A stretch of 64,000 nucleotides of DNA, from positions 17,981,331 through 18,045,330 of the forward strand of contig OY783210.1 of the NCBI GenBank assembly GCA_963678705.1, read 5' to 3'. This DNA comes from Panorpa germanica (taxonomy: Eukaryota > Arthropoda > Insecta > Mecoptera > Panorpidae). Below the pieces are notes generated by a model. The model did no database searches. It was given only the letters and a program-made list of their open reading frames with translations, and was not told the origin of the DNA. A program made the translations under genes and the position numbers. Below, piece after piece: positions 4,308 through 55,550 of this stretch (position 1 is the first letter of the stretch; every line of letters begins with the position of its first letter).

Positions 4308-5693
4308 ATTAGGTCTTAAGCGAGGCATTTAGCGGGTTAGATCTAATAAGCCACCAAATATCATCCAACCGCGACTGGCTCACGTAAAGAAAGTAGTTGA
4401 AGCAGATCCGTCACTACTAGTTTTTCAAAAAGGATTGAAAATGGTTTGTTGAAATTAGTATTACTCCCCTTAAAGCTAAATCCGACACTGTGTTTTGTAT
4501 AAAGAAGTAGCGGTAAAGAAAAATCAAAGTTCTAAAATACTTCAACATAAGTACAAGGTAAAATGATTTAACAAACTATGCAAATACAAATAAATGGAAT
4601 GTCGCTACAAGATCAAATTGTACTCTTCTTGTAAGAGTATGCTATGCTGTACAATTAAGTACATGAAGGCAGGCATTGTTGCACAACGGTTTCAAGATTT
4701 GTTCAAAAATACCTGGTTTCTGTTTACATTTGTCCTGTACTAATAAGTACAATTTTAGAGAATTAGAGAATGCAGTTTTACAAGAGTCTTTGGGTTTGCT
4801 AATACGATGCACATGCATTTTAATCAATTCATAACATTCCTGCTAAACATAGTTATATGTATATCAGAAATCTAAATTTTGCTATTAAAATAGTGAAAAT
4901 ATCTTTTCTAAATAAATAAATTTAGGAAAAATGATAATTTTAAAAAAAGGGAAAAATACAATCATGAAATTATCTTTTTCGAATTAATAGAATGACAAAA
5001 TTACTTTTCTGGAACTTTAGAATCATAAAAAAGCGATTTTCAGACAAAGTTTTAAGTTTTTTAGATTATAAAATAAATTACTTACAGTTCTGACAACAAT
5101 GCAGCAAACATATTCTTTGGAATAATTCTACAAATACACTGGCTTTAGTAATAATGCATCACCTTCTCAAGGAGACAATCATCAGTTTACAATGTTAAGA
5201 CTTTTAAAACAGAGAACTAAATCACTTGATGTAAAAGACTGCTCGATTCTCCTCGATCATTTTGGCTAATAGTCACTAAGATACATGGGTTGCCAACATC
5301 TAACCCGGAGGAACGACATCCCGATGGAGACCTTCCACGACAAGTCGAGGAAATCGTGACTTTATCCACAACAACTAATCTTACTTAAAACTTACAGATT
5401 TTTTTTTTTTTTTTTTATCTTTATATCTTCAATAAAAGCCAAAATGTCGTATTTTTTTTATGTTTATTATAAGCATATAGGTCTTCTATCTTTTGTACGT
5501 TTGCAAATAATATTTTATTTAGGTATTGTTTCTTTTGAAACGATCTTATTTTTTTAGTGTTTTTAAATGGTTTTTGTAAAAATCATATTTTTGATAGAAT
5601 CATTATATTTTATTTAAACTTTAATTCTATTTTTAAATATTTCGTTTACCTATATTCAATAACAATTCATAATTTCTATGTACTTAACATATA

Positions 5694-5735
5694 GTAATGC
5701 CTCATTCCTACTCACTGTTTTGATATTTACAATTT
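5694..5735 (-). repeat. Terminal fragment of the ~500-bp MITE family
   Basis: GCCTCATTCCTACTCACTG followed by TTTTGATATTTA matches the end of the MITE copies at 17.6, 28.0, 30.3 and 54.4 kb. Only the terminal ~40 bp is recognisable; the neighbouring sequence does not continue the element. Confidence 0.6.
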
Positions 5736-9092: not shown

Positions 9093-12000
9093 TTACACAA
9101 AATAAGTCCTGCCTCTTCCAATTGGTTGAGGGGGCATCACCGGTGGTGCTTCTGGTATTGTGGAATACACGTGTCCGATAGACGCCGTGGAATCCCTGAG
9201 ACTTCTACGGCCACCACGGCTATCTATTGTCATATAACCGTGCTGACTTGTGACGTCATAATGTTGACTATTTGATGACGTCGACACTGAACTAACTTCA
9301 TCTTCGGTGCTCCTGTGCGATTCACTAGCATACGTAGATTGAGTAGGCGTCGGTGTGTGTGACGTCATGCCATGTATCGGCGTCGTCATAGGAACTGCAT
9401 TCTTATACCACGTATCCAGCGATGTTGGTGCAGCTGTATATCTTAAATTAGGACTTTTTTTCACATCTGGTAATTTCTTAGATGACTGATTTGTACCAGG
9501 ATTTCGTTTCACTGTTTTAAATCCTGGAACATCAGGCATTGAGAATCTTAATTTATCCCAAAAACGTTTTTCACCCCAAGATATTACGGTGCAAGTTCTC
9601 AAAAGTATTTGCAGAGTCGGATCCATCGCTATTGTCTCAAATGCTGTAGTAATGAGTAGTATTATTTTATGTCTTCTTGAACAGGGGCGAATTGATTCTA
9701 ATGTTGCTTGTAGTGCTGCTCTAAATTCAGGCCGGGACCACTCATTTTGTAGGAAATTTAGTGACAGGACTAACACAATCCTTCTAGATGCGTCGCACGC
9801 ACTAAGAAGACTATCTGCTAGGTAGGACGTTCCGTGAATATCACGATGGTGTAGACACAGAGTGTGTCCTCCCTGCTCCAGTTCAGATGCGATAACACGT
9901 GACACAAAATCTTCATCGCGGCCGCTGTAGACAACGTAGCCGTCGTAGAGTCTGTCTCGATCATCTTGAGACTCGGTAGTTGACGCAGAGTCTTTGAAAA
10001 GACGAACCCCGTACTTAGCATGGGCCCATAGTCGAACGTCTTGCCGGAATACAAAAGCTAGTGCCACTAAAAGACTGGCGCCAATCACAGCAACCAAAGC
10101 AGCGGCTAATAAAGGAATGTAGCCGTTGCCTAGTAGTCCACTAGCTTGCAAAACAGTTCTATGTACGGAAGGAGGTGACATATTTTCATCTCTTTCACTC
10201 TTGCATTTACGTATGACGGCTCCAATTGTTTCTGTGCTTGGTTTACCGTTAGTAGCATTGCATAACATTTTATCAGGATCGCCATTATTATTCAGTAACC
10301 AGGATTCTAATTTTGAGACCGAATCACAATCGCAAGTCCATTTGTTACCTTCCAGAGATACTTTTGATAACGATCCTGATTGTGTAGCAGCTTGTAATTG
10401 TTGCCAAGGTGAAAAATCAACAATTTTATTTTCATCAAGTCGTAAAACTTCCAAATTATGCATCGAGGCGAATGTATTGTTGCCTACATGTGCAATAACA
10501 TTGTGATCTAAATAAAGTTCATTTAAATTTGATAATTCTTTGAATTCAAAACCACGAAGTTCTTCTAACTGATTGTTTTCGATATGGAGCACCCTTAAAG
10601 CAGTGGCGCCGTTAAACGTTCGGTTATGCAAAGCGTCAATATTGCTGTTATTAAGAAATAGTACTTGTAGTTTTTTCTTACCGATGAAAACATGGCTACC
10701 TAGTTGGCCTAGATCGTTTCCATCCAGGTATATTTCTGTTGCGTCCATCGGGATCTTCTCTGGGACGGTTTTGTATCCAGCGTTGCTACAATCAACGACG
10801 TTTGAATTCCAGGTGTGATCGTGATAACAGCTACACCTGTCTGGGCACGTCATTTCACAATCACAAGCGTCGAAATCACAACAATGACACAATGCAAAAC
10901 AATGGCTTTCATAAGGACACAAAAACTGACTTGGCTTGAGATCCATTAGCGGTCTGACAGGCGCGCCCCGAGAGTGTGCTAACGAGCATGTAACTGTATC
11001 AAGATCCATTATTCGCGGATGCTGTCTGAGATGACTTAATTGATTAATCCGCTGCATCCATTCCATCGTGCAATCGCAATGAAACGGATTTCCACTGATG
11101 TAAAACTGTGGCATGGTTTTATGTTCAGGCACCATTGAGAGACCAAACGACGCTAACTCAATCTTTCGTAATTCGTTAGCATATAGAACAACTTTTTCTA
11201 AATTTGTTTTATTTAAAAATGTACCTGCTTCAACACTGGTTATATTGTTGTTGTTCAAAAACAACGTTTCAACACTATCAGGTATAGACGATTCAACAAT
11301 GGTTGTCAGTTTATTAAAGCTAGCATCCAACATTTTAATGTGTAGGTTCGTCCGAACCCCAAAATAGTTCCCAAGCTCAGCAATGTTATTTTGGTGCATG
11401 TCCAACCATTCCAAGCTTGCGGGTAGGTGACTGTAGTCGAACCAACGTAATTGATTGTCCGATACATTCAACCAGACAAGTCCAGGTAGATTCGTAAAAA
11501 CTCCACTAATGTCTTCTAATCTATTACCATCCAATCTAATGGCACGTAATGTTGGGTTAGAACCGAAAGCACTTTGATCGACGTGTTTTATTTGATTAGA
11601 CGCTAAATTTAACACTTGTAACGATGGTAATGTCATAAACGCGTCACGTGATATATTCACTATTAAATTATCAACTAATCTTATTCCAAAAAGTTGATCC
11701 AGTCCTTCGAACGATGAGTTATGCACTGTTTTTATTAAATTTTTACCGAGATCTAACGATTTCAAGTAATGTAACTTTCCAATGCCGTTTGGTATTTCAC
11801 TTAAGAGATTTTCATTAAGTCCTAAATCGTGTAGATTTGTCATATTTTCGAAAGCACGTTCATTTATATGTTTTATGAGGTTACTGTCCAAAAACAATTG
11901 GTTTAGCACATAAAGTCCAGTGAAATGATAAGATTCAATTTCAGTTAGTTTGTTTTGAGATAATGTCAGGGCGTGTAGATTTTTAAGTTCAGAGAAAGCG

Positions 12001-13163
12001 CCCTCCGCGATTACTTCGATTCCGTTATTATCCAACGATAGGATTTGTAAGCTGTACAAATCTTGAAACACTTGACTGTCAATCCGCGTAATTGAATTGT
12101 GAGCCAGATTTAAAACCACTAATCGCACTAGACCAGAGAAAGTATCTCGATTAACCCATCGACTCGTTAATTCGTTTCTACTTAAATCCAGCACTTGTAA
12201 CTGATCCAATCCTTCCAGAATTCCCGGCGCGAGAACACTTAGTGAGTTGTTTTGTAAATACAGCTGTGAGAGATCCCGCGAAGACTGGAAAAGCTCTGGC
12301 GGCAACGCGACTAAAGCATTACTTGACATGTTTAAAATTTTAAGTGAGGTCAATCCAACAAACGGACGATCAGCCAAAGACGATAATAAATTCTCTTGTA
12401 TTAAAAGAGTTTGAAGAGATCTTAAACTCGATAAGCCGTTATCAGGAAGTATTGTAATATCATTAAATGACATGTCCAATGTTTCAAGTCCTGTGTTGCA
12501 AGATTTACCGGGAGATGTTGGTCCGTTACCCCAGTCTGAGAATCCTAATTGAGATACATCTTGCAAACGGTTTCTGGTTAAATTAAGCACTTGTAAACTA
12601 AATAATGGACAGAATACTTCCGTGGGTAAGGTCCAGATGTTGTTATCCGCTAGATCCAGAACTCTGAGTTCCGTCAAGCCACGGAAACTTTCGGGGTGAA
12701 ATTCCATAGTCATTGCTGACCAATCAGTATTGTGTGTTCGAAGGGACAAACTCCTTAAATCGCGTAAAGATGACAGGACCATTGCAGGAACATAACGTAT
12801 TTTACAGAATTCGATTTCTAAATCTTTCAAACGTCTTAATTGCCCGAGAAAACTACCCTGGTGTTTATTTGTTTCTAGAGAACTTTCAAAGAATAGCACA
12901 TCACTGCATGATAATTTTAATGATGTTAAACGTTCGATTTGATGGCCTGTCAGATTGCCTAATAGGCTCTCTGTTCCGCCGATCGTTCGTAATTGACAAT
13001 TAAGTATGGTTGTCACCGTTTCTTCACTTGTTTCTTCTAAAGTTAACACTCTTTGCCATTCACAGCCTGCTGGAGTTGATTCCACACGACTCGTTAAAGT
13101 GCGAGTCTCGGAATTAAAAACACATAATAACATTAACACAAAATACACAAGTAAGGAACCCAT
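9093..13163 (-). CDS. Long Toll-like receptor (18-wheeler/Toll-7/Toll-10-like)
   Basis: Intronless ORF of 1356 codons encoding a single-pass receptor of the Toll family, with innate-immune or cell-adhesion/patterning roles in insects. A signal peptide (residues 1 to ~21, hydrophobic MGSLLVYFVLMLLCVF) precedes a long leucine-rich-repeat block (~60-690). Next come a cysteine-rich C-cap (NPFHCDCTMEWM, ~690-760), a cysteine-rich N-cap (CPDRCSCYHDHTW, ~770), a shorter LRR block (~800-930) and a second C-cap (KWTCDCDSV, ~940). The transmembrane helix is at ~1015-1039, the TIR domain at ~1068-1211 (box 1 YDGYVVYS, BB-loop region LHHRDIHGTSYLAD, box 3 KRFWDKL), and a Ser/Thr-rich tail runs to 1356. 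Two LRR blocks, an intronless gene and a long tail define the 'long Toll' clade rather than Toll-1 or Toll-9. The TIR is divergent, so the exact orthology is open. The start fits because the signal peptide follows immediately. Confidence 0.95.
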   Translation of the reverse strand: MGSLLVYFVLMLLCVFNSETRTLTSRVESTPAGCEWQRVLTLEETSEETVTTILNCQLRTIGGTESLLGNLTGHQIERLTSLKLSCSDVLFFESSLETNKHQGSFLGQLRRLKDLEIEFCKIRYVPAMVLSSLRDLRSLSLRTHNTDWSAMTMEFHPESFRGLTELRVLDLADNNIWTLPTEVFCPLFSLQVLNLTRNRLQDVSQLGFSDWGNGPTSPGKSCNTGLETLDMSFNDITILPDNGLSSLRSLQTLLIQENLLSSLADRPFVGLTSLKILNMSSNALVALPPELFQSSRDLSQLYLQNNSLSVLAPGILEGLDQLQVLDLSRNELTSRWVNRDTFSGLVRLVVLNLAHNSITRIDSQVFQDLYSLQILSLDNNGIEVIAEGAFSELKNLHALTLSQNKLTEIESYHFTGLYVLNQLFLDSNLIKHINERAFENMTNLHDLGLNENLLSEIPNGIGKLHYLKSLDLGKNLIKTVHNSSFEGLDQLFGIRLVDNLIVNISRDAFMTLPSLQVLNLASNQIKHVDQSAFGSNPTLRAIRLDGNRLEDISGVFTNLPGLVWLNVSDNQLRWFDYSHLPASLEWLDMHQNNIAELGNYFGVRTNLHIKMLDASFNKLTTIVESSIPDSVETLFLNNNNITSVEAGTFLNKTNLEKVVLYANELRKIELASFGLSMVPEHKTMPQFYISGNPFHCDCTMEWMQRINQLSHLRQHPRIMDLDTVTCSLAHSRGAPVRPLMDLKPSQFLCPYESHCFALCHCCDFDACDCEMTCPDRCSCYHDHTWNSNVVDCSNAGYKTVPEKIPMDATEIYLDGNDLGQLGSHVFIGKKKLQVLFLNNSNIDALHNRTFNGATALRVLHIENNQLEELRGFEFKELSNLNELYLDHNVIAHVGNNTFASMHNLEVLRLDENKIVDFSPWQQLQAATQSGSLSKVSLEGNKWTCDCDSVSKLESWLLNNNGDPDKMLCNATNGKPSTETIGAVIRKCKSERDENMSPPSVHRTVLQASGLLGNGYIPLLAAALVAVIGASLLVALAFVFRQDVRLWAHAKYGVRLFKDSASTTESQDDRDRLYDGYVVYSGRDEDFVSRVIASELEQGGHTLCLHHRDIHGTSYLADSLLSACDASRRIVLVLSLNFLQNEWSRPEFRAALQATLESIRPCSRRHKIILLITTAFETIAMDPTLQILLRTCTVISWGEKRFWDKLRFSMPDVPGFKTVKRNPGTNQSSKKLPDVKKSPNLRYTAAPTSLDTWYKNAVPMTTPIHGMTSHTPTPTQSTYASESHRSTEDEVSSVSTSSNSQHYDVTSQHGYMTIDSRGGRRSLRDSTASIGHVYSTIPEAPPVMPPQPIGRGRTYFV

Positions 13164-16100: not shown

Positions 16101-17647
16101 AATTTTACTTGTAATAATATTTTGTAAATGACATGTTAAATATAGTATGAAACTATAGTTCTAGAAGGCCATTCAAAATATAAGAAAAAGAAAAAAATAT
16201 ATAGTATAAAAACCAGAGATATTTTTTCTGGGTATATATAGTTATGATCAAGTTATATTTACTAATTAGGTAGCGAAGTAGGTAACGACACCACAAAAAC
16301 TGCTGATTGAAACTGGTGATTAAACTCAGCATCGCAATAGGCCGACGTTAAATAAATTAAATTAAAAAATATAGTCTAAAGCTTCATTTCTGATTCCCGC
16401 ATATCGCATGATTTCGCAAGCTCAAAATTACATTTAAGGTTAAAACTTCAAATTAAAAAAAAAACAGTGAGTGGGAATGCGGCTTAAAAAAATTATCGTG
16501 CCACTTCAAAACATAATTTATGTTCCCTATTTCAATAAAGTATATTCTCTCAATCAACTTCTTATGTCAATTTTTATTCTTTTCAGTGGAAAATGTTCTC
16601 CAAGCGTCCACGGCTTAAACTTTGGGAGTGCGTTGAAGAAATCTCCGTAAACAATATTCTTGTAAGTAAAAATTTTTATCTATTACTATTTAGAATTATA
16701 AGCAATGTATAATGTTACTAGTATCGAGAAACGCCTGATATATAAGCAATAATACATACATGTCCTTAACCAAAATCCTGTTCTGCATTAGTTTTTACAT
16801 AGTTAATTATTTTTTCATAAAAATTATTACTTCTCACTGTCACTAATTTTTCATTAAAACTGACTAAGATTTTTTATTGAAAATGTGACTAAACTTTTGG
16901 GACAAGTTATTTTATAGACCACTTCATTTCTTATATACAATTCTATTCAATTCTCAACAATTTGTCATCTTACCTTTAATTTTATTCAACGATATTGTTA
17001 CAGTTCAATTAGTTTGCCTTAGTTTGGGAATTCAAATAGTTTTGTATGTTATATACAGAACAACAAACGTATTTTTCTATTTTAAAACGCCTGATAAGTA
17101 TACAATAATTCTTACATGTTTAGTTTATGCAAATCTATAAAACAAACGAGTCAATTTCCCCGTTTGATTATGCCTTAGAATATGAATTATGAACGAAATA
17201 TTTCGCATTTCGAACCAGTTAAACTTCTTTAATAATAATTTACATAACTACATTTTTTCTATTATAATTTTTAACTTACTAGTTTAACTGATTTCTTGAA
17301 TATTTTAATATTTGCCACCATCTTTTAATAATCTGAATATTGTATGTAATATAATATTTGCTATATTGAAATATTTCAAATAGTTTCTTTTATAAAATCT
17401 TAAAAGCCTCGGGCGCTTCAAAACTCAAACATTCAATATAGTAAAACACACAAACCATAAAGCTCTATAACTATTAAAAGAGTAAAAGAGATAATACATA
17501 CATCATATTATATTATAATAGAAAGAGAAAAGAATACATTGATCAGAATGCTATAATAAGTCAGTAGTGGTCAGTGAATTTCAGATGGCTAATCGAATTA
17601 TTAAATTAAAAAGATTGTTAAAAAAATAAACAGTCATCAACGTAGCG
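13164..17647. other. Toll upstream region and gene-free DNA
   Basis: This lies upstream of the Toll gene (transcribed leftward) and must hold its promoter, but I see no convincing core promoter motif. No coding ORF is visible. A MITE terminal fragment lies at 16460-16486. Confidence 0.5.
16460..16486 (+). repeat. Terminal fragment of the ~500-bp MITE family
   Basis: AACAGTGAGTGGGAATG followed by CGGCTTA matches the right end of the full copies at 28.0, 30.3 and 54.4 kb. The rest of the element is absent and is replaced by an A-rich stretch. Confidence 0.55.
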
Positions 17648-18035
17648 TAAAGCCTCATTCCCACTCACTGTTTTGATATTTAATTTACTGTTTTTATTTA
17701 ATATTGTAATCTAGATTTCAGGTTTTTGTTTAAGCATTCTTTTTCACATTTGTGTTTTAATTTAAATTTTGTTAATTTAGTTGGTGCGTATGTATCGTTA
17801 GTAATATAAATTTTGACAGTTAGACAAAATTGTATGTGAAATAATTAAAACTGCTATTTTTAATAACAATTAGTAATAGAAATTGTTTTCTCTTCTATAT
17901 TTTTCAAAAACTGACATTAAACTTCTTTTAAAAGTAAATCCTACTGCATTTTGACAGATTGTCACAATTTGGTGACGGATAGTAATATAATATAGTTTTT
18001 CTTAATTTAATATTTTTAATTTAAAACATTGGACC
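17648..18035 (-). mobile_element. MITE of the ~500-bp family, truncated copy
   Basis: It begins TAAAGCCTCATTCCCACTC and can be followed, in reverse orientation, along the copies at 28.0, 30.3 and 54.4 kb: the ACATTAAACTTCTTTTAAAAG block, the TGCATTTTGACAGATTGTCA block and the AT-rich inner part. Homology stops at ATTGGACC near 18035, so the distal ~100 bp and the second terminal repeat are missing. It has no coding capacity. Confidence 0.8.
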
Positions 18036-26900: not shown

Positions 26901-28021
26901 TGGCACATTATCCCATGGTTAAAAGGACTAAATGACCAAACAGAGTATTTTATAGTTGTGCTTGTTTCGAAGGACCTTTTTCAGCGCTTATTCACGATCG
27001 AAAATAAGTGGCCGCTGCGCACAGGAGTAAATAATGACCACTCGTTGTCACTTTTCATGTATCTTGTTTTAATTTACTTCTCTCGACAGATTCTTTAATT
27101 TATATTTTATGCCTAAGAAGGGATAAGCTCCTTCATCCTTGCTGAAACTCACCGAGTCTCGTTATATTTCATTAGTGCCGACAAGGGCATTTACAGTGCC
27201 TTTATTTAGTGGTCTATTAGCAAACTTTTGTCTAAAAGAAGCGGGGTACCGAGAGGAACAATCCGCTTAGCTCCCACTTCCAAAAACTCGATTTTATTAT
27301 GACTAGATTCAAAATGGTTTGATTAGATACAATTAATTTTGCTTGGGGTGTTGAAAAGTTAACAGTTTGAAACGTACATGGATGGTAAATAAAAAGAGTT
27401 CTTAAAACACAACTTTATACAAATCACGTTTATTTTAATCATTTGTAGCGGCTATTTAAAATGGATTGAAACTAGTAACTTGTTCAAAATCGTAATATGT
27501 CGCCCAATTGCGTGATGACAAAGCTGACAACTTGTGAAGCGATGTACGTATCGGAAAGCTAGACTCTACATTTCTAGTGAAACATTTTGTGTTTAATATT
27601 TTGGGAATCTTTGAACAATCCTTGTTCAAGCAAAGGATGAACATCAAACTATGCGCATAGTATATGCTACATTACTCACGTTGTCCTACAAATACAACTG
27701 TACCTATTTTGTATGTCTTGCGTAACTTTATAAGTCATGTAATCTAGATTTACATAATTCTGTTTACATTTTCGTAAAGTGTGGTTAGGCCACTACTATG
27801 TACAATGAACGTATAATAGTATATAGTCTATTTGTTCAAAAGTTTTCTTGCATATTTCAATCATTAACCAATATTAATTTGGTTACTCTCTTGTGTTCTA
27901 TTAATTTTCATCACTGCTATACAATATTCAAATGTCGGTTACTACTTACAGCTCTCTTAGAATGGTTAGATACTAGCGCAACTAAGGAAGGGATTCCAGC
28001 ACTCATCCAAAAATCCAACTC
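23944..28021. other. Gene-free region
   Basis: No supported gene. A short imperfect hairpin at 25802-25860 and pyrimidine-rich tracts near 26180 are present. A slightly GC-richer patch at 27110-27300 could be an old exon or element remnant but matches nothing I can name. Confidence 0.45.
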
Positions 28022-28518
28022 TAAAGTATCATTCCGACTCACTGCTTTAATTTAATTTTGTATTTTGTATATATTCATTTTTTTGTATTTATTATATTTT
28101 TGTAGTCATTCAAAGTACCATTTTTTAAGTTTTCTTAGTTTTCTAGAACCTTACAAGGTCCAATGTTTTAAATTAAAAATATTAAATTAAGAGAGACTGT
28201 ATTATGTTATAACCAAAATGTGACAATCTGTCAAAATGCAGTAGGATTTACTTTTAAAACAAGTTTAATGTCAGTTTTTGAGAAATATAGAAGAGAAAAC
28301 AATTTCTATTACTAATTGTTATTAAAAATAGTAATTTTAATTATTTCACATAGCATTTTGTCGAATTGCCAAATTTATATTACTAACGATGCATCCGCAC
28401 CAACTAAATTAACTAAACATAGAATAAACACAAAAACACGAAAACCTAAAATCTAGATTACAATATTAAATAAAAACAGTAAATTAAATATCAAAACAGT
28501 GAGTGGAAATCAGGCTTA
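28022..28518 (+). mobile_element. MITE of the ~500-bp family, full-length copy
   Basis: This runs from TAAAGTATCATTCCGACTC to CAGTGAGTGGAAATC followed by AGGCTTA. The ends are imperfect inverted repeats of each other (about 25 bp, core CATTCC-ACTCACTG). The inside is AT-rich and non-coding and aligns along its length with the copies at 30.3 and 54.4 kb. A TA at each border is compatible with a TA target duplication, but the exact border is ambiguous by one base. Confidence 0.85.
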
Positions 28519-28851
28519 AGAAATGTTTAATTTTCACAAATATAAAACAAATGAACTATAGCTAAAAGTTCACGTCCTTTTCAGATTATTTGTGTGTTTT
28601 TTTTTACATAAATACAATTACATATAAATAAAATAATCCTCACGACATAACACCTCCCTCCTACCCCCCTAAACTGTCCGTCTAGCGTCTAGACTTGAGA
28701 CATTTATCCATTTAGTGAATTTGATAACAAATCATTTGAATAATAAAGTTACTCTTATTTATAGACTTACTTTTCTGTACTTTTAACGCGAACGATTAAT
28801 AACAAGGCCCTACGTTACTTGAAACTTTTACGCAGTTTCTATTCAAGAAAC

Positions 28852-28974: not shown

Positions 28975-30315
28975 CAAGAAATATTAATACTTCACTTGAT
29001 TTAATACATTATGATCGATTGCTTAGATTTTATTTTAATTGCAGTGTCTGAATCTGAATAATTATTCTTAATTATTCTATCCTATTAAAAAGAGAAATGC
29101 CATCGAAATGTAAAGACAAAATTGCAAAAAAAAGGGGGAGGGGGAATGTAGTGTAGGCGTTGGTTGAATAAGACGTTGTTGTATTTATTAAATAAAATTG
29201 TGTTTAATTTTTATTTTTCCTATAACGAATTGTAACTGGATATATATGAATTATCAACTCACTTCCCGCTAAATACAGCTAACGTGATAATAATTAAATT
29301 TTATCTAACATAATAAACGATACGTGTTACATAAACAATGTTACCTACAAAACAGCGTTTTGTGACCTGTGTTACTTGTTTATAAAAAATAAATCTAACC
29401 CTTTGGGTATTAACATAATCAAAAACATTTAAGGATTATATCTTGGGAAGTCCTTTTTAGGGATTAAATCGTAAGGTATCTTTATTTACACCTTACTTTA
29501 AATTTTTCTTTATTTATTCTTATTAGATTAACTATTACAAAGCTTCAGTAATATATTAATTGTATATAAAGTAACATACATGTTTTCTATTTAGCGGGTT
29601 ATTTGTCATTGAAAAGAGTAAAACTTTAGAGAGCTAAACAACTACTTACATAGAAAAGTTATTGAATACGTAATTATATTAAATCAAAAACAAAAAAAAG
29701 ATACTAAATATTGTAAAAATAATTACCTAGTTATTGCAGCAGTAATTTAAGAAAAGAACGTATTCGGGCAGAATGGGCAATTACTTTTATAAAGGGATGT
29801 CTCAAATTAAGTTTAAACGTTTCATTTTCTTCATTATTCTTACTTTGTCAGAACATACTTGCTTCGCTGCAACGTTTCTGTGTCCCACATATACATATAT
29901 TCTTTATACTCGTATGTGTTTCCAAGAGATGTCGCACACAGTTAAAGCAATTCATTACCTACTTATTCTTTATATTAAAATATCTCCCTAGGTATTAATA
30001 CGACCAGCATCACCCCCACCACTACACCCCTCAGTCTGTTATCAACGTTAGCTTTTTGACGCCTTAGCCTTAGCATTTACTTCTACAAATTTTGTTATTT
30101 TTTTACAACGTTTATGTTAATTTTATTACATAATTTATTCTTCTGCTCGAATTCACAAGACGATCCTTGACAGTCATTGAGTCATATAAATGTAAATCAG
30201 AATATATGTTGTTGTACAGGGGTGAACTTACGCACGGGTGAAATGTAGTTGTGATTAAGGAAAAGGAAAATAAGCAACAATTGTGTACGGAAAACCCCCA
30301 TTTATTTAGCAAGTA

Positions 30316-30832
30316 TAAAGTATCATTCTCACTCACTGCTTTAATTTTATTTTGTATTTAATTTAAATTGTTTAGTATATGGCAATACGCGTAGTCATTC
30401 ACAGTATCATTTTTAATTTAATTTATTTGTTAAGTTTTCTTAGGTTTTTAAGAACCTTATAAGATCCAATGTCTTAAATTAAAAATATTAAATTAAGAAA
30501 AACTATATTATATTATAATCTCCAAAATGTGACAATCTGTCAAAATTCAGTAGGATTTACTTTTAAAAGAAGTTTAATGTCAGTTTTTGAAAAATATAGA
30601 AGTGAAACAAATTTCTATTACTTATTGTTATTAAAAATAGCAATTTTAATTATTTCACATACAATTTTGTCGAATTGTCAAACGATGCATACGCACCAAG
30701 TAAATTAACTAAACTTAAATTAAAACACAAATGTGAAAAGGAATGCTTAAACGTGAACCTGAAATCTAGATTACAATATTAAGTAAAAACAGGAAATTAA
30801 ATATCAAAACAATGAGTGGGAATGAAGCTTAA
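30316..30832 (+). mobile_element. MITE of the ~500-bp family, full-length copy
   Basis: It runs from TAAAGTATCATTCTCACTC to AATGAGTGGGAATGAAG followed by CTTA, with imperfect inverted ends, and is collinear with the copies at 28.0 and 54.4 kb. It contains the shared internal motif ATGGCAATACGCGTAGTCATTCAC, also found in the 54.4-kb copy, so these two are the closest pair. Non-coding. Confidence 0.85.
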
Positions 30833-31900
30833 TTGTTATGTGTTTCTACCAGGGCCGGTCCGAGAGGCATGCGGAAGATGCGGTTGTATCGGGCATCAAG
30901 GTAAAGAGTGCGCCAAACTGTATAAAGCAGCGCCAACTTTAATTTAATTTCACAGTAGACTATTTGAAATATGAAAGAGAAGTGAAGGCGAAATCTGTGA
31001 GTTCATAGGTTTTTAAAACTATCTGAATGGTTAATCGGTATGTAATCGATCTCAGTCGTTGTCTTAGTATACCTGTAACGATGCGAGCTATATATTTTCG
31101 ATGCGCTAGTGAATGTAAACCATCGCTCTGTACGATTCACCTCTGGAATTGTGGCAGAAACGAAGAAAGGCAACCGTGGAAGCGACAACAGCAATGACAG
31201 TGGCAGGTCTAATACAGCGATCTACATTGCCGACTCCCCCAACACTCTTGTCATTTTCACACGGAGTATGGTACAAGGAGCGGGAAGCTGCGATATGAAT
31301 TGGTTGCTCCGTTTCGGTCTTACTCGGTCGCTGTCATTGCCATATCAATAAAAGTTAGCGGCATTTGCATAAAATGATATGTAAAGTTTGATATACACTA
31401 GATTATTAACTTTAAGTTGAATTAAAGTTATCGATAGAGGATTTAATGTGAGGAAATTAAAATAACATTGTCGTAATTCCATACCGTATTTTCTAAATTG
31501 ATCTATTACCATCGACGCCGCTTGGTCCTTGCAACCACCACAAAAACTGTCAATAAAAATATCTTAATAACTTCACTAAGATATCTGCGTAATTAATAGA
31601 TGACCGGGGTAATTAACACAGGAAGAAATATTTAAATAAATCAATTTTATGAACCTTGTTGATTTTATAATATGGTGTTGTGAAAATACGATCTATTAAT
31701 TAGTAACATAAATGAATTAATTATCTATAGTATTATATATTTACCAATTAATTAAAATTCATGTAATATGTTACACTCTCATTATGAAATAAAAATTTAG
31801 ATATATAAAATAATTAAAAATTGTTCTTTTTTAACTCTCAAACCTCCAGCGTTTAAAATTGTGTTATTTAGACTTTTTATTAACAGAAAATATCACTTTT
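30833..31900. other. Unassigned region with a GC-richer island
   Basis: At about 30850, AGGGCCGGTCCGAGAGGC resembles a hAT-type terminal sequence, but no matching end was found. Bases 31090-31370 are clearly richer in GC than the surroundings and carry short overlapping ORFs on both strands (31109-31351 plus, 31003-31194 minus). I recognise neither; the segment may be an old element body or a decayed exon. Confidence 0.4.
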
Positions 31901-33560: not shown

Positions 33561-36162
33561 AAGGATTAATATTTAAGAATAACTTTGATATTTTAAATTC
33601 TCACAAACTTTCTTAGACTTATTCTATTGATTAATTAACTAATTCTGAAGAGGGATTAGTTTCGGGTTTCGTAATTAATAGTATATGCCTTTCTGGTACT
33701 TTAGTTGTTAATTTATGTTTTATAGCTGAATGAATGCTTTAATGATATTTCAATGATATTTTTTTTAGCTAAATCAGTGGATTTTCTATCGATGAAACAA
33801 ATAATGCAGCACAAATTTGTATTAATGACTGAGTGATCCACCAGAACAGAAAACTTTGAAAACAAAAGGATTAATAAGTAAGAATATTTCAATTTTTTAT
33901 AAATATTGTTACTTTTTAGTTCTTGAGAACATTGCTACAGAACAAGTATTGTAAAACACTTCGATGTCTAAAATGAAAGAATGTATTTTATGGGTATCAA
34001 CAAAAATATTTATGCCCCTCATTTGTCATATATTAATTTCATTTATGTATTTCCTTAAGGTATTAAATAGAGTGCGAAGTGTTGTTCCGAGTCAGTGTGG
34101 GGGTGACTTTTTTTTTGGTTTTTTTGGGGGTGAGTGACACTTTGGGACATGCAACCGTATAGATATTCATTTAATATAAAAAATATATATTAAGCTTATC
34201 GTTCGGTTTATTAAAACCCTAACCCCTGGCTATATTAGGTTGATATAATGTTAAAAAAAAGTTAATAACATAAAAATATGGTGCACTTTTAGGGGGATGA
34301 TACAAGGGTAAAAAATGTATAGTAGTTTGTGCATTTATTTACCCTGTGGATGTTTTTTATGTTGTCAATAGACATCGAGTATAAATATTTAGATAGATGT
34401 GAAAGTGCTTTTAGCTTGAACATTATTTAAATCTATTTTTGCTTTGCTAAAAATTGTTTTTTTTAAATGTTTGAATTTTTACTATTGTATTTTCTTAATT
34501 ACAGAATCAACTTGTGGTCCTATTACGCAAGGGATTATATTTTACTACTTGATATGATAGAAAACTTATTTTTAAACAAGGCCTTACTAAATATTTATAG
34601 ACAACATCTCAACAAATTCATAATTGTAATATCAATGTTGAAATCTGTAATAAGATCACAATTTTCTTCTGTTTTATGTAGGAGGCATCATATGTGGAAC
34701 ATCTGACTATATTTTATACTCCCTGACTTTAATAGCTCGTGCCAAATATATCTAGTCGAGGGCTGTGGGTGGATGTACATATTGCGTACCCGGAATTTGA
34801 CTCTGGTTGACTCGATTTGTCTTTTTTTTGTCTGCGATCCGGTTTACGTTGTTTTCCATGCCCTTAAGGGTGGTTCCGGATATATTAGTACTCTTATTAG
34901 GGTTATATGCAACCACTCACACCCCTATATACACAACGTGCACTAAGCTACCCCTCAAAGAATGCATCTTCGGCACCGACCAACATGATACGCATATTGC
35001 TATTTTTGATGCGTTTTTTATGTATTAGTTCCTCCAGTTTTTTTTATCAAAGTTAGTAGCATTATTTATTGCCACGTGGCATGTCAAAACAAAATTATAT
35101 TTATTTGATATTAATTTCATGAAAGGAATCGTGAAAGCTTTTGAGTGTTTTAGAGCCCGTAATATTTTTGAGATATTACTAATGGATACATGCTGAAAAT
35201 AGTTTCACTGCTGAAAATGTTTGCGCTGTAAGAATCTTGCGTTTGAATTAACACATAAGGCATTGTTACCAGGCTGCTGTGCTCTCGGGCTTTATAAACA
35301 GCAAAATGGAGCTATTTATCATTTAAACGTAATGCTATATTTTTAGCAACAATACACGCAAATGTGGAGATCAATCCTAATACATTAAAAATGTTTATAG
35401 ATTTTTTTATTGAAGTAAATAAATAATATTTATAATAACATGCGGATATATTTTATAATATTAATAAGGGTGAAAGTTTAGGGGATATTATAATAGCAAC
35501 CCTTGTTTTTTTGTGATGCTGAACACATCCGGAATATTTATTTTTCTCTTGCATCATCTTTGTCTTATCTATAGCCCATGATTATGTTATTATGTTCATT
35601 CCCTTAAAAGTTTCTTAAGGGTAATAGCTACTATAATCTATATACTTTATTATTTCATCACTAATTACAGAAGCTATAATTAGACTTATTTAGTAATTAT
35701 TATTTTAATCCTGATACTTATGCAATTATAATAACATTGTAAATTAGAAATATTTCTTACTCTCTGAATTGTTTGCAATTATAACAACATTAATTTAATT
35801 TTTTTTTTTAAAGGTGCGGCAACAACAGCTCTCCCACGGATCATACTGCACATAAGAGGTACAATATTAATACCTTACCTCTACCAATGTATTTTGTAGT
35901 TCTTTTTTTCAATTTTCTGGTTGATCTTTAGTTCTTCATCAGTATAGAGTACCCTGACATTCTCATGTAAAGTGTTATGTTTGGAAACATACTTTTTGTG
36001 CAACTTTTAATAATGAATCTAAAATATATGTACTTTGTATTTATTGCAAAAACTATTAGATTTGTTTTCAGTTTCTTATTAACTGGCAGAAACCATCAAT
36101 AACTGTTAACTAATAATTATTGTCTGTGTTAAGTGTTAACATATATTTTCTTCTTGTTCTAG

Positions 36163-36293
36163 CTGCAAGAACCTCCAGTAGCTACTACTGGAATACTACA
36201 AGGTTAATGTGGATGTCATTATTTTAAAGTTTATGTCTACTTACAACATTTCGCTGTTAACTTCGCTAATACAGATGGATTATTGCCTTTTAA
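36163..36293 (+). pseudogene. Exon-like block, upstream copy of a duplication
   Basis: This block starts after a polypyrimidine tract and AG (CTTCTTGTTCTAG) and ends at AA|GTAAGT. It is closely similar over its whole length, and in both intronic flanks, to 37387-37514. This copy carries an in-frame stop in the frame that is open in the other copy. The shared peptide HFAVN...DG is reminiscent of the RFAVNDG motif of SLC25A32-type mitochondrial carriers, which would fit the carrier exon at 37.7 kb, but the match is short and tentative. Confidence 0.4.
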
Positions 36294-36474
36294 GTAAGTT
36301 TATAATTTGAATAATATTTTACACAAATAGGGATAGGGAGAATAAAAGTTTCCAGGTAAAATATTGATAGTTGTTATTATCTTAAAGTAAATACACTAAG
36401 TCGCTCTGGCGTCGTTGTTAATTATATATAACAAATCATTTTATTAGACTTTATGATATTTTTCAGCACTATAT

Positions 36475-36560: not shown

Positions 36561-37386
36561 TATATATATTATCTTTGGGCAATATAAAAGATGAACATTA
36601 AGAAAGTGTACAACACATTTGAAGAAAAGTATGAAGGTAAACATATAAATTCATAATATTGGTCTTTGTTGTATATTTGTGACGCAAATTGATAAATCAT
36701 TTAGAAAAATGTGAAGATCTGACACTGGATGTCATTTTCCATACATAGAATTTATTAAAGTAGTTTAACATCTGATAGACATATTCTTAAAACAGAAAGA
36801 GTATTTAAGATTAGAATTAAGATGAAAATTATCGCTGTTGTGTTTGTGCCTTGTAAATTACAAGTTAAATGTATAAAAAATACATTAAACAAATATATAA
36901 TATCCAAGAAAAAATATAACCTAAAAAAAAGTAGTAAGTGTAAATTTCTGTGGTCGCAATATTTGTTAGTAAAACGAATGGCCGCATTCTTTAGCTCGGA
37001 TATTTTTAAGTAAATGTAATAAAGTGCTTTACTATTTATGAACAATTACTATAATTAAGTAATAAGTATTGTATCGATAGATCAAATTCGTGAAACGTGC
37101 AAGTGTTTAAATATATTTTCTATCAGATTCAATTAGCGTTATGTCTAATAATAATGTTTTCTTTCTACTTGTAATGTTTGTTACTGTACATTACTAGCTA
37201 TATAGTGGTTGCCTACATTACTAGCTATATACTTGGTTCATCAATCATTATTATTTCTCCTTTGTAAAATAATCTTTGTTCACTGAACAATGTTACATAA
37301 TTGTACAAATAGTTTCCTATTTTCCATTGGATTTCTTATTTAAAGTGTCTTAGTAAATGTTAACATTTATTTTCTTCTTGTTGCAG

Positions 37387-37514
37387 CTGCAAGAACTCCA
37401 GCAGCTACTGGAACACTACAAGGTGAATGTGGACATCATATATTATAAAGTTTATGCCTACTTACAACATTTCGCTGTTAACTTCGTTATTACAGATGGA
37501 TTATTGCCTTTTAA
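37387..37514 (+). pseudogene. Exon-like block, downstream copy of a duplication
   Basis: Here the acceptor is CTTCTTGTTGCAG and the donor AA|GTAAGT. One frame is open throughout (starts LQELQQLLEHYKVNVDI, ends DGLLPFK). It is the intact-frame sister of 36163-36293, about 1.2 kb away, so the duplication includes intronic flanks and occurred at the DNA level. The product is not recognised. The HFAVN...DG resemblance to the SLC25A32 family is weak. Confidence 0.4.
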
Positions 37515-37723
37515 GTAAGTTTATAATTTGAATAATATTTTTTCTATAAACACCTTTAGGGTTTCTCTTCATTTTCATCGTAGTATCGGTGAGTTTGACC
37601 ATGACACTTGAATGGGTTTGACAACTCTTTTTCCATTCCATTCAATGATTATGGAAATGGAATTTCCATAATGAAATGATTTTTACATAAAACTTTAGCT
37701 AATTAGTATTCTTATATTTGCAG

Positions 37724-40620: not shown

Positions 40621-41064
40621 ACACATCATATTATCGATAAAAATACCCACATGGGGAAGGGGTCATCACCGCTCCTGTTGGAAAGGCCACCAATTTAATT
40701 TTTAATTTTAGATGACTGCCAAAAAATATCGGCTTCTCGGAATGTAAAGGTGTTACGGATATGGAAAAAATATTATTTGAAAGAAAATTATACCACCTAT
40801 CAAGTAATGAAAACATTTTGTAAACTTACAAATTAAAAACATCATAAAGAAAATGATTTTTGCAAATTTTACTCTAAAATTTGTCTGTTTGTTTTTTGTT
40901 TTCCTTACATACCTCAAAAAATGTGACAATTGATGTCCATTATTTTTACAATATATGTAGTGGCATACGGACATATTAATATAATATATATTTTAATTGA
41001 GTGCATCAACTTTCAATAATTATTAGCAGTTTATTATATATTATTTTATTTTATGTCTCGTATA

Positions 41065-41471
<407 letters not shown>

Positions 41472-41604: not shown

Positions 41605-42000
41605 TCAGAGTGGTTACGCTTCACAGGTGGCAGAAGTTTTTATCCTAGATCACAACCACTGACTTACGTTTCACTTTTATAACATAGATGACGCCATATA
41701 ACTAATAATTGAACCTTATATTTTCCTCCGTTTTATAAGAGATGGCAGAGTGGCTTAGCAAAGATTTCAACCAGTTTCATTTTGGTTCAGCTTTTATAAT
41801 GTAGATGGCGATAGTTATCTATCCTAGATCATAACCCTTTAATCATTAGTTTATGTTTTATAATATAGATGGCGATAGTTATCTATCCTAGATCATAACC
41901 CTTTACTCATTAGTTTATGTTTTATAATATAGATGGCAACATCTTAGGTCGTAACCCTTTTGAAATTTAGTTCCGATTTCGCAAAATAGATGGCGGTAGT
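41605..42000. repeat. Minisatellite, ~60-64-bp unit, about seven copies
   Basis: The motif TTTTATAATATAGATGGCG recurs at about 41674, 41731, 41792, 41856, 41920 and 41978. The three central copies are spaced exactly 64 bp apart, and outer copies are shorter and more diverged. Each unit continues into TATCCTAGATCATAACCCTT and TCATTAGTTTATG. A further diverged copy starts near 41620. The gradient (perfect centre, decayed edges) is usual for a replication-slippage or unequal-exchange array. Confidence 0.9.
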
Positions 42001-42140: not shown

Positions 42141-42393
42141 ATTAAAATTGTAAAGCCTAACGGCTTTACAATTTTAATGTAGTCGCCGAAGGCGACTACA
42201 TTGCAGCCTTCGGCTGCAATGGCAATCGCGAAGCGATTGCCAAAATGTTATTACATAGCATCCGAAGGATGCTATGGCAAACGCTAAGCGTTTGCCTAAT
42301 GCCCGCAAAGCGGGCAGATGCCTCCGGCATCCTTAATATATAGTATATGTATAGGCCTACCTTCGGTAGGCCTATACATATACTATATATTAA
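42141..42393. repeat. Array of nine consecutive perfect hairpins
   Basis: Nine palindromes with 3-4-base loops follow one another, nearly all with no gap. Stem spans (loop) are: 42141-42178 (TAAC, 17-bp stem); 42179-42199 (GAA, 9); 42200-42220 (TTC, 9); 42221-42241 (GAA, 9); 42254-42276 (GAA, 10); 42276-42296 (TAA, 9); 42301-42315 (AAA, 6); 42317-42331 (TCC, 6); 42333-42393 (TTC, 29). All stems are perfect, no two stems share a sequence, and most loops are GNA- or TTC-like triloops closed by C-G or G-C. No coding frame or known element explains it. See findings. Confidence 0.95.
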
Positions 42394-42491
42394 TATCGTC
42401 TAACAATATTGATTTGTCTATATCTATATGTATATATAAATACTTATGTAAAGGAAACTATATTCAAATATAAGTTTTTTTCTTTTCTAGC

Positions 42492-42760
42492 AACCGAGCC
42501 CCGTGGCTCACAGCTAGCGTCGTTGCCTCGTATCCGTGCGGCCCTGGGATCGTATCCCGGCCGGATCCATATAAACTAAAAAAAAAACTGCTGCGACCCC
42601 CCCCCTACCGAACCCCGGCGTACACACCGACCCACCACCCCCCACCGTACACACCCCGCCATGCCCCCTCTGGCACTGCGCGCCCATCGAACCGTGCAAA
42701 AATATACCCGGCGAAAATAATATTAAAAAATCTATGACAACCTTTTGCAATTTTTTTTAA
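42492..42760 (+). mobile_element. tRNA-headed SINE with C-rich body
   Basis: An A box (GTGGCTCACAGCTAGCG, ~42503-42519) and B box (GGGATCGTATCCC, 42546-42558) at tRNA spacing mark a tRNA-derived head. A short A run, then a strongly C-rich body (42590-42690, runs of five to nine C) with few G on this strand follow. The element ends in T- and A-rich sequence. A minus-strand ORF here is a composition artefact. No target duplication was identified. Confidence 0.65.
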
Positions 42761-52442: not shown

Positions 52443-54367
52443 AAGTATTTAAAATTTAACGTACAGTGTTTTATTTACATGTTACTTAATCAAGTCTGTA
52501 ATTTAATATTGCTTTTATATTCCATTTATTAATATTTAAATTAATCTAAATAAATGCATAAATTCCAGAATTTTTGTTACTGATACAAAAGAGAAACTTT
52601 TGTTTATCCTATTTATAAAATTCTGAACTTCTTTAAAATGATTTAGAAACAGTTAAATGTTTTTGTACATTGGTTTAGGATCTTTAAAGACAAAATAAAT
52701 TTAAAAAGCTAGTTCATTTTGTATTATCTTTTATGTTATTCCTGCTATAGAATTAAGAATTATTATTTCTAAAATTAAGCTATTTGCGATAGAATTAGGG
52801 TCAAATAACAACTAAAAAAAAACACTTATAAAACTGAAAATAATAACTGAAATAACAAAACAAGAAGATATGTGACCTATTGTCTTATTCTCTACATTAT
52901 TGATTATTGATTAGTAATATAATATTTTTAAAATAATTTTCCTATTTATATTCTTAGACCGTATCAATTTATGATTTCATACAAGTTTTTATACGGAATT
53001 GGCTCAATGGTCCCAATTAAGAAACGATAACTGCATCTTGCATTCACATGGGATTAAAATCAGAATGTTAATACAGCGGTGGTTTAGCTTTACACCAACA
53101 CTAAACATGCATTTGAGTAAAATAATAATAATTCATAAATCAAATTGTATGTTTGGTGTTAAAGATATATATTTATTTATTCTCATTAAATCAATCATTT
53201 AAGAGTTCATGAAATAATATAACCATTTAAAAATAACGGAGCGCGTTCAAAAACTTGTGTTATGTAAAGCTGACTTATCAATATTTAAACCAAATGGCAA
53301 AGGTTTGAATCCATGGTAACTTTCTAGTTTTTGAAATTAACTTGATTATGATATGCTTATTATTATTATTATATTAACATATTCTTTATTTATGTAATTT
53401 AATAACTGTTTTTCTATAATACTGTTATATTGTTACTAGCTACATTTACCTAACAGTGCTTTAATAGTGCCGCTGTAACTATATATATAACGGAGTAAAG
53501 AGTATGAGTATAAAATTTGTTCTTGTTTTATTCCATTGATTTTGATAATCGACGATAAAAAATTGCTGAGTATATGAAACAAAAAAGTCAATATTTTTTT
53601 ATTTACTTGATAATAGTGCTTTAAAAGCTTTTCTGTTCCTATTTAAATTTACGATTACAAATAATACGTTTGTGTAATAATGCATACGTTCTGCTACATA
53701 AATATTACGTAAATGTTAATTTTCGTAATGTAGTTTTGCAAATGTACGTAAATTTTACAAACTGTACAAATAAAAATTTATCTAATAAAATGTTTATAAA
53801 CATATGTGGTAAAATTTCGGTTACATTTTTGAATCACTATTTATATTAACAGACATGTGTTCGCAACACATTCCTGATGTTTGGACTGGTTATACACTTG
53901 CACTATAAATATAATTAACATATTTTTGAATTAGAGCCATTTGCTTTATCAGCTGTACATGATAAAATAAAAAAAATCGTAACATTGAAGAACTTCCGGA
54001 TTGAAATATTTAGTGTTCAAAATATAAACAGTGTCTTGAGAAAATTCCAAGTTTAACAAACGACAAATATTTTAAAAAAATTAGAGAAATATTTGTTAAA
54101 TAAATATTTAATATTGTAAATTTTATGCACATATTGATTGTGTACATAAACAAAAAAATTCCTATGTAATGGTTTCTAGAAGTGAGAGCTAAATCTCTAA
54201 GACGCAGCATCTGCCATGTACTCATAGCATTGATTCAATAGGTGAAATTAACTGCACAAGTGCAGCAATTGTTAAATGTTCCCACGATTTTAAGAAAATA
54301 TTCACCGTAAGACCTATTTCTTTACTTTCGTTTCTTTACTAAATATTACTTGTTTTGATATTAAAGA
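52443..54367. other. Gene-free region, possible SINE relic
   Basis: TTGGCTCAATGGTCCC near 53001 resembles a polymerase III A box, with a poor B-box-like GGGATTAAAATC ~50 bp on. GGTTTGAATCC near 53294 is another isolated B-box-like string. Neither makes a complete tRNA. No coding sequence seen. Confidence 0.35.
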
Positions 54368-54894
54368 TAAAGTATCATTTACTGCTTCAATTTAATTTTG
54401 TATTTAATTTAAATTGTTTAGCATATGGCAATACGCGTAGTCATTCACAGTACCATTTTTAATTTAATTTATTTTTTAAGTTTTTTTTAGTTTTTTTAGA
54501 ACCTTACAAGGTGTTTTAAATTAAAAATATTAAATTAAGAAAAACTATATTATATTATAACCTCCAAAATGTAACTATCTGTCAAAATGCAGTAGGATTT
54601 ACTTTTAAAAGAAGTTTAATGTCAGTTTTTGAAAAATATAGAAGTGAAAACAATTTTATTACTAACTGTTATTAAAAATAGCAATTTTAATTATCCCACA
54701 TTCAATTTTGTCCAATTGTCGAACTGTCAAAATTTATATTACTAAAGACGCATGCGCACCAACTAAATTAACTAAACTTAAATTAAAACACACATGTGAA
54801 AAGGAATGCTTAAACGAAAACCTGAAATCTATATTAAAATATTAGATAAAAACAGTAAATTAAATATCAAAACAGTGAGTGGGAATGAGGCTTA
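54368..54894 (+). mobile_element. MITE of the ~500-bp family, full-length copy
   Basis: This runs from TAAAGTATCATTTACTG to AACAGTGAGTGGGAATG followed by AGGCTTA and is collinear with the copies at 28.0 and 30.3 kb. The left end has lost several bases of the CCCACTC core, so its terminal inverted repeat is the weakest of the three full copies. Non-coding. Confidence 0.85.
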
Positions 54895-55550
54895 AGTCAC
54901 TGCGCATTTGATTATTTTGCTCTAGGATCACAGCAAGTAATTCAAATTTTTCATAAAACACTTTATGTAATATACATGTTTTGTGTTTAGGGGATGATAA
55001 TAAAATCTCACACTCAAATATAAAGTCATCCGAAAAGTTTTATCAAAACTTAAAAAAATATTTATTTCAGCTATTGGTTGGCGTTTAACTTTATTAAATT
55101 TTCAATTATTTTCCGGTCATTGGTTTAAGTGTATCCATTTTATTTTTCGATTCAGACTTTTCCACATACTAGTATTCAATTTCAGTTAAAACTTTCTTAT
55201 CTTTTTAACGTTTTCCAGGTATTTTATTTAAAGTAAGGTAATTTTCTTTTAGTTTTTTGAATGAATTTAGTATTTTTCTTTATTGCATTTTTAACTAATG
55301 TAATTATTTAGTTTAGCAAACACGTTTCAAGTCTTAAAACGTATTTCATTTAAACTTTACTATAAGTTTTGTTTATTTCTAAAACAAAAATTTGTTTTAC
55401 TAGTTTACTAACCATTTAAATGTGTAATACAAATTCTATTATATATTATTTTCTTAAAGTTTCAAGTGTTATCTTAAGAGGCCACGGGACTATATGTTTC
55501 CTTATATGGTATTTCAACTTTGAAGAAATAAATATTAAAATTATATAAAT

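Follow-up and report, generated by a model that had tools for sequence, protein, structure and literature searches.

The 64,000-nucleotide stretch of Panorpa germanica DNA analysed here (hereafter the window) is insect nuclear DNA; within 253 nt of it (positions 42141–42393) lie nine perfect palindromes placed back to back, each closed by a loop of only 3–4 nt. This array is a real DNA structure and is far from what chance would produce. By resemblance, rather than by a sequence match, we consider that it may be an organelle-type hairpin-repeat block which was captured as inert filler in the insect chromosome, a reading to which we assign a probability of roughly 0.38; we rank it as the most likely, ahead of, in descending order, local fold-back synthesis, a mobile element, an assembly artefact and a structured RNA. 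In the literature used for comparison, perfect hairpins that form chains or families are organellar, whereas this array sits in an insect chromosome. A chain of this kind in the nucleus would mean either that foreign organelle DNA has been captured, or that hairpin-templated copying acts in a nucleus.

All nine palindromes lie where the initial annotation, which was made from the letters of the window, had placed them, with their loops in the order that it gave (Table 1). Counted without overlap, the stems comprise 104 base pairs, and 0 of the 208 arm nucleotides are mismatched, in agreement with its description of the stems as error-free. Among the stem lengths that it proposed, the 10 bp of the fifth stem is correct at full length, whereas the seventh stem has 7 bp and not 6. 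At full length several stems reach 1–3 bp into the adjoining hairpin, and some neighbours overlap by 1–4 bp. The exact layout of 9 + 3 + 9 = 21 nt recurs in five of the nine hairpins. A weak 4-bp stem, which is absent from the predicted DNA and RNA folds and may be due to chance, occupies the sole gap between hairpins that exceeds 3 nt; with this stem included, the total is 108 bp and ~85% of the 253 nt is covered, a figure which is slightly high because the weak stem has two bases in common with hairpin 5. The setting is noncoding, with short stems and small loops, and no listed open reading frame of at least 100 aa overlaps the array.

Table 1. Hairpins of the array and other features of the window (positions are those of the window; stem lengths are non-overlapping counts, with full-length stems in brackets; loops are given 5′ to 3′).
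Feature	Position	Stem	Loop	Remarks
Repeated pieces (six)	5686–5729, 16450–16491, 17639–17682, 28016–28523, 30310–30836, 54356–54899			similar ends, inversely oriented
Tollo-like frame	9093–13163			minus strand, open
Duplicated stretch	36130–36320 and 37354–37541			~1.2 kb apart
(TA)n array	41061–41470			410 bp
Minisatellite	41792–41937			64-bp period, 2.3 copies, 97% matches
Hairpin 1	42141–42178	17 bp	TAAC	base AT-rich, tip GC-rich
Hairpin 2	42179–42199	9 bp (12 bp, 42176–42202)	GAA	
Unit copy 1	42199–42241			hairpins 3 and 4
Hairpin 3	42200–42220	9 bp (10 bp, 42199–42221)	TTC	unit copy 1, first hairpin
Hairpin 4	42221–42241	9 bp (10 bp, 42220–42242)	GAA	unit copy 1, second hairpin; includes ATCGCGAAGCGAT
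Weak stem	42245–42256	4 bp	TATT	ATGT-TATT-ACAT; separates the two unit copies
Unit copy 2	42254–42296			hairpins 5 and 6
Hairpin 5	42255–42275	9 bp (10 bp, 42254–42276)	GAA	unit copy 2, first hairpin
Hairpin 6	42276–42296	9 bp	TAA	unit copy 2, second hairpin
Hairpin 7	42300–42316	7 bp	AAA	
Hairpin 8	42317–42331	6 bp	TCC	GGA on the other strand
Hairpin 9	42333–42393	29 bp	TTC	base AT-rich, tip GC-rich; TTAA at each end
tRNA-like stretch	42490–42720			possibly a SINE (by eye)

For comparison with chance, a hairpin was defined as a stem of at least 6 bp with a loop of 3–4 nt, and hairpins were counted per 253 nt. Two hundred first-order Markov versions of the window reached a maximum of five (mean 3.1), and 2000 Markov sequences modelled on the array alone reached a maximum of three, against nine in the real sequence. 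The rest of the window also peaks at nine per 253 nt, within the (TA)n microsatellite upstream of the hairpins, a type of repeat which is trivially self-complementary; by number of hairpins alone the array therefore has an equal in the window, whilst its distinct GC-rich stems are unique there. Single-strand folding of the array gives z values of −20.7 as DNA and −17.9 as RNA, with 0 of 200 shuffles folding as well in either case, and these values, together with the Markov counts, uphold the earlier claim of a non-random pattern. In both predicted folds the hairpins form separately, one after another in a linear chain, unlike the terminal hairpin of a parvovirus, which is a single long palindrome with nested internal arms.

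Read on one strand or the other, six of the eight triloops are GNA (binomial P 3e-5 to 9e-5). In every one of the eight the closing pair is C-G, backed by a second G/C pair; both tests were devised after the loops had been seen. C-GNA-G triloops are unusually stable as DNA mini-hairpins, and d(GCGAAGC) reportedly forms an extraordinarily stable hairpin. The link to this class that had been drawn in the initial annotation holds, both in these loop counts and in the presence of ATCGCGAAGCGAT, located at 42225–42237 in hairpin 4. The inner stems are GC-rich, at 37 of 58 bp compared with 29% GC in the window (P 6e-8), and only 0.23% of 153-nt segments of the window, the array's own segments counted, match the inner array in this respect. 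Hairpins 1 and 9 have stems which, at 24% and 28% GC, are AT-rich like the host.

The GC content of the inner array sets it apart from most of the window, as might be expected of an assembly chimera, or of a piece of contaminant DNA joined to that of the insect. However, both sides of the array grade into AT-rich, host-like DNA with no seam visible by eye, and at the sensitivity of blastn nothing in the records of E. coli, plasmids or phages matches the array; we consider the likelihood of such a join to be slim.

The initial annotation had also held that the stem sequences all differ, the structure being repeated and the sequence not. This is literally true of the stems, most of which are distinct, but it misses a 43-nt double-hairpin unit which is present in two copies (hairpins 3–4 and hairpins 5–6). 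The copies align without gaps, the column pairing having been read by hand and a 44th column falling outside the unit, and they differ at 10 of 43 nt (six in stems and four in loops). The six stem differences make up three fully compensated base pairs out of three (T-A/A-T, G-C/T-A and T-A/A-T), in none of which is a G-U intermediate possible; hairpins 3 and 5 carry loops (TTC and GAA, respectively) that are exact inversions of each other. The suggestion that an active process keeps the arms identical gains some support from the compensated pairs and the inverted loop, although the sample is small (three pairs in one duplicated unit).

Paired changes which preserve the stems between unit copies, and the strength of the RNA fold (z −17.9), would also be consistent with a transcribed multi-hairpin RNA selected for its fold. 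Set against this, all 104 stem pairs are Watson–Crick, none of the three changes could have passed through G-U, and the window contains no Rfam match at gathering thresholds; furthermore, known small-RNA processing acts poorly on hairpins with triloops. We place the RNA reading last in probability. The features of the array suggest DNA-level copying and correction, by template switching, over an RNA selected for pairing, and the duplicated unit with its paired changes lets these two causes of arm-matching be tested against one another.

The nearest likeness of the array, again judged by resemblance, is probably to the organelle hairpin repeats of green algae, fungi and sponges, for which, as for the other papers cited, we draw on excerpts. 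Green-algal organelle palindromes (Chlorosarcinopsis eremi, Volvox, Haematococcus) resemble it in their small loops, loop inversion and adjacent or nested insertion. In a green-algal plastid the palindrome loops are of 3 nt, loop microinversions account for 96% of trinucleotide substitutions, and palindromes are inserted beside or inside one another (PMC7043297), whilst in Volvox organelles the loops are of 3–5 nt and the palindromes are often nested in each other (PMC2670323). The stems of the plastid palindromes and of the Volvox mitochondrial hairpins are AT-rich, unlike the GC-rich inner stems of the array; Haematococcus organelle palindromes include GC-rich members (PMC7235400). The repetitive hairpin-forming elements of sponge mitochondria include double and triple hairpins, with GC-rich stems in Halisarca, and show complementary substitutions between two Vaceletia types, substitutions in Igernella and Halisarca being reported, in the excerpted text, only in loops (PMC2800124). 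These elements, and the double-hairpin elements of Allomyces, are like the array as hairpin repeats with multi-hairpin members and GC-rich stems (Halisarca); the sponge elements differ in the 7-nt loop of Vaceletia yellow18 and in being all mitochondrial. Compensated stem changes are likewise found in HyLIMP of Lobosphaera mitochondria, in which stem mutations are usually matched by complementary ones in the opposite arm (PMC4524435), although its repeat units are pentanucleotide-like and it belongs to a mitochondrial genome. A point against capture is that organelle palindromes, as described in these excerpts, form families of many similar copies with common motifs, whereas the insect array is one chain in which most of the hairpins are distinct. 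It also counts against capture that no insertion scar was visible by eye, and that the searches of E. coli, plasmid, phage, IMG/VR and GTDB records yielded no donor sequence.

If the array is a captured organelle-type block, single-stranded DNA would have folded at tips of great stability, most of them C-GNA-G triloops, and a polymerase may have slipped onto the folded strand and copied one arm from the other; because one arm is copied from the other in this proposal, the arms would stay complementary, stem changes would be paired and loops would sometimes flip. New hairpins would arise beside or within the ends of old ones, or through duplication of a two-hairpin unit. The block would then have been caught as filler at a chromosome break, and would now be a passive passenger in intergenic nuclear DNA. 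Template switching, the organelle source and capture at a break are the steps that we infer. Template switching has been proposed both to generate perfect stems and to correct them (PMC8794818; Monttinen and Loytynoja 2022), and the hairpins attributed to it resemble the array in that their stems are perfect, paired changes are instantaneous and loops become inverted. In the same excerpted account, however, loops of 3 nt are under-represented among paired changes (3.5% vs 6.1%) and those of 4 nt over-represented, whereas eight of the nine hairpins here have triloops, and the account expects exceptionally stable loops to invert rarely; on both counts it does not favour the template-switch reading.

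With 0 differences in 208 arm bases, substitutions since the arms were last equalised amount to at most ~1.4% per site (95% bound, if neutral), so that capture of a neutral block would be recent. The nuclear palindromes of Volvox, according to the excerpted text, are often degenerate (PMC2670323), and capture would have to be recent on this ground also, since the array is perfect. A more far-reaching interpretation, which we regard as rather improbable, is that the array represents a gene-free, self-propagating mini-hairpin chain of the animal nucleus, the C-GNA-G tips of which would drive intrastrand copying, with structure inherited and not sequence.

The chain may instead have been made in place, in the insect nucleus, by fold-back synthesis repeated in series during Pol theta break repair or replication template switching, which would have turned neighbouring arms into perfect hairpins. 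Pol theta can begin stem-loop synthesis at two paired 3′ bases and makes fold-back products, and templated insertions are described as the most frequent outcome of its repair in Drosophila (PMC11292364, in excerpt). The host-like AT-richness of the two outermost stems would fit such an origin, as would the nearby (TA)n array and minisatellite. The inner stems, however, are far richer in GC than the window, and among the 40 matches listed when the array was compared (blastn-short) with the rest of the window and with the 31 bacterial loci described below, none falls in the window. Moreover, fold-back yields second arms and leaves nine new first arms unexplained, and the duplicated unit with its compensated changes is likewise unexplained by it. 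We judge synthesis in place to be unlikely, though it is the strongest of the alternatives.

Mobility has been argued for fungal mitochondrial palindromes and for the Allomyces double-hairpin elements (PMC7218506, in excerpt), and a mobile element, or part of one, which moves via single-stranded DNA with hairpins as recognition or priming structures might account for the position of the two longest hairpins at the ends of the chain and for the TTAA, which hairpin 9 alone carries at both of its ends. Nonetheless, the window has 19 families of direct repeats, to none of which the array belongs (the inverted-repeat pairs number 402, of which 25 are listed), and no flanking duplication was seen beside the array by eye. 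The sole listed open reading frame of at least 100 aa within 2.8 kb falls in the (TA)n array. A mobile origin seems to us a good deal less probable than capture of an organelle-type block, and stands below synthesis in place.

A pattern for the double hairpin matched 0 loci in either IMG/VR or GTDB. The single-hairpin pattern, modelled on hairpins 4 and 6, gave 31 GTDB loci in 11 bacterial genomes (by record title): Oligosphaera (10), a Gemmatimonadetes MAG (10) and a Lentisphaeria MAG (3), one genome each, with one locus apiece in three Akkermansia and in Vogelbacteria, Bradyrhizobium, Elusimicrobia, Oscillospiraceae and Clostridia. These loci have the pattern GGCAAWCGC-GAA-GCGWTTGCC, often as the tip of a longer stem, and the loop is GAA in 31 of 31 though the pattern permitted TAA, loci of the same genome not being independent. 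A broader tally of loops across these loci is left out of account, since it is biased by their having been selected with that very hairpin. Some of these GCGAAGC-tip hairpins share all 21 nt with hairpin 4, and others are one loop base away from hairpin 6; they differ from the array in their flanks, in their often longer outer stems and in their chains, the longest of which has three hairpins. We rejected a bacterial origin, and read the bacterial loci as probable convergence on a stable tip, because the flanks differ and there is no comparable chain among the 31. A cyanobacterial origin was also rejected, with no cyanobacterial title among these loci. As regards a viral origin, likewise rejected, six of seven pattern scans of IMG/VR were empty and the seventh gave a single locus, which we read as a chance match because it lies in GC-rich DNA with overlapping reading frames and does not fold into a chain. 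The initial annotation knew of no insect element with such an architecture; a non-exhaustive survey of literature titles and abstract openings found no insect nuclear counterpart and leaves that statement uncontradicted.

Elsewhere in the window, the open Tollo-like Toll receptor frame has insect relatives with up to 66% identity (among 120 listed of 2762). In a quick tree of 40 rows, comprising the window's protein and 39 hand-picked from the 120 listed relatives, the Tollo-like protein groups as sister to a set of seven rows that includes four named flies (SH-aLRT 97), a placement that would suit a lineage sister to Diptera, such as scorpionflies or fleas. The array itself is surrounded by AT-rich DNA, between the 64-bp minisatellite, which like the (TA)n array lies upstream of the hairpins, and a stretch that appears by eye to be tRNA-like and SINE-like. 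In this stretch a tRNA-like part with a B-box-like motif precedes an A-rich segment and, after it, a C-rich one; ARAGORN made no tRNA call in the window. The stretch that is duplicated upstream of the (TA)n array matches its other copy in two pieces, which are 91% and 96% identical. Six further pieces of the window are repeated, with similar ends in inverse orientation, such as CCTCATTCCCACTCACTG and CAGTGAGTGGGAATGAGG, and look like a family of non-autonomous DNA elements with terminal inverted repeats.
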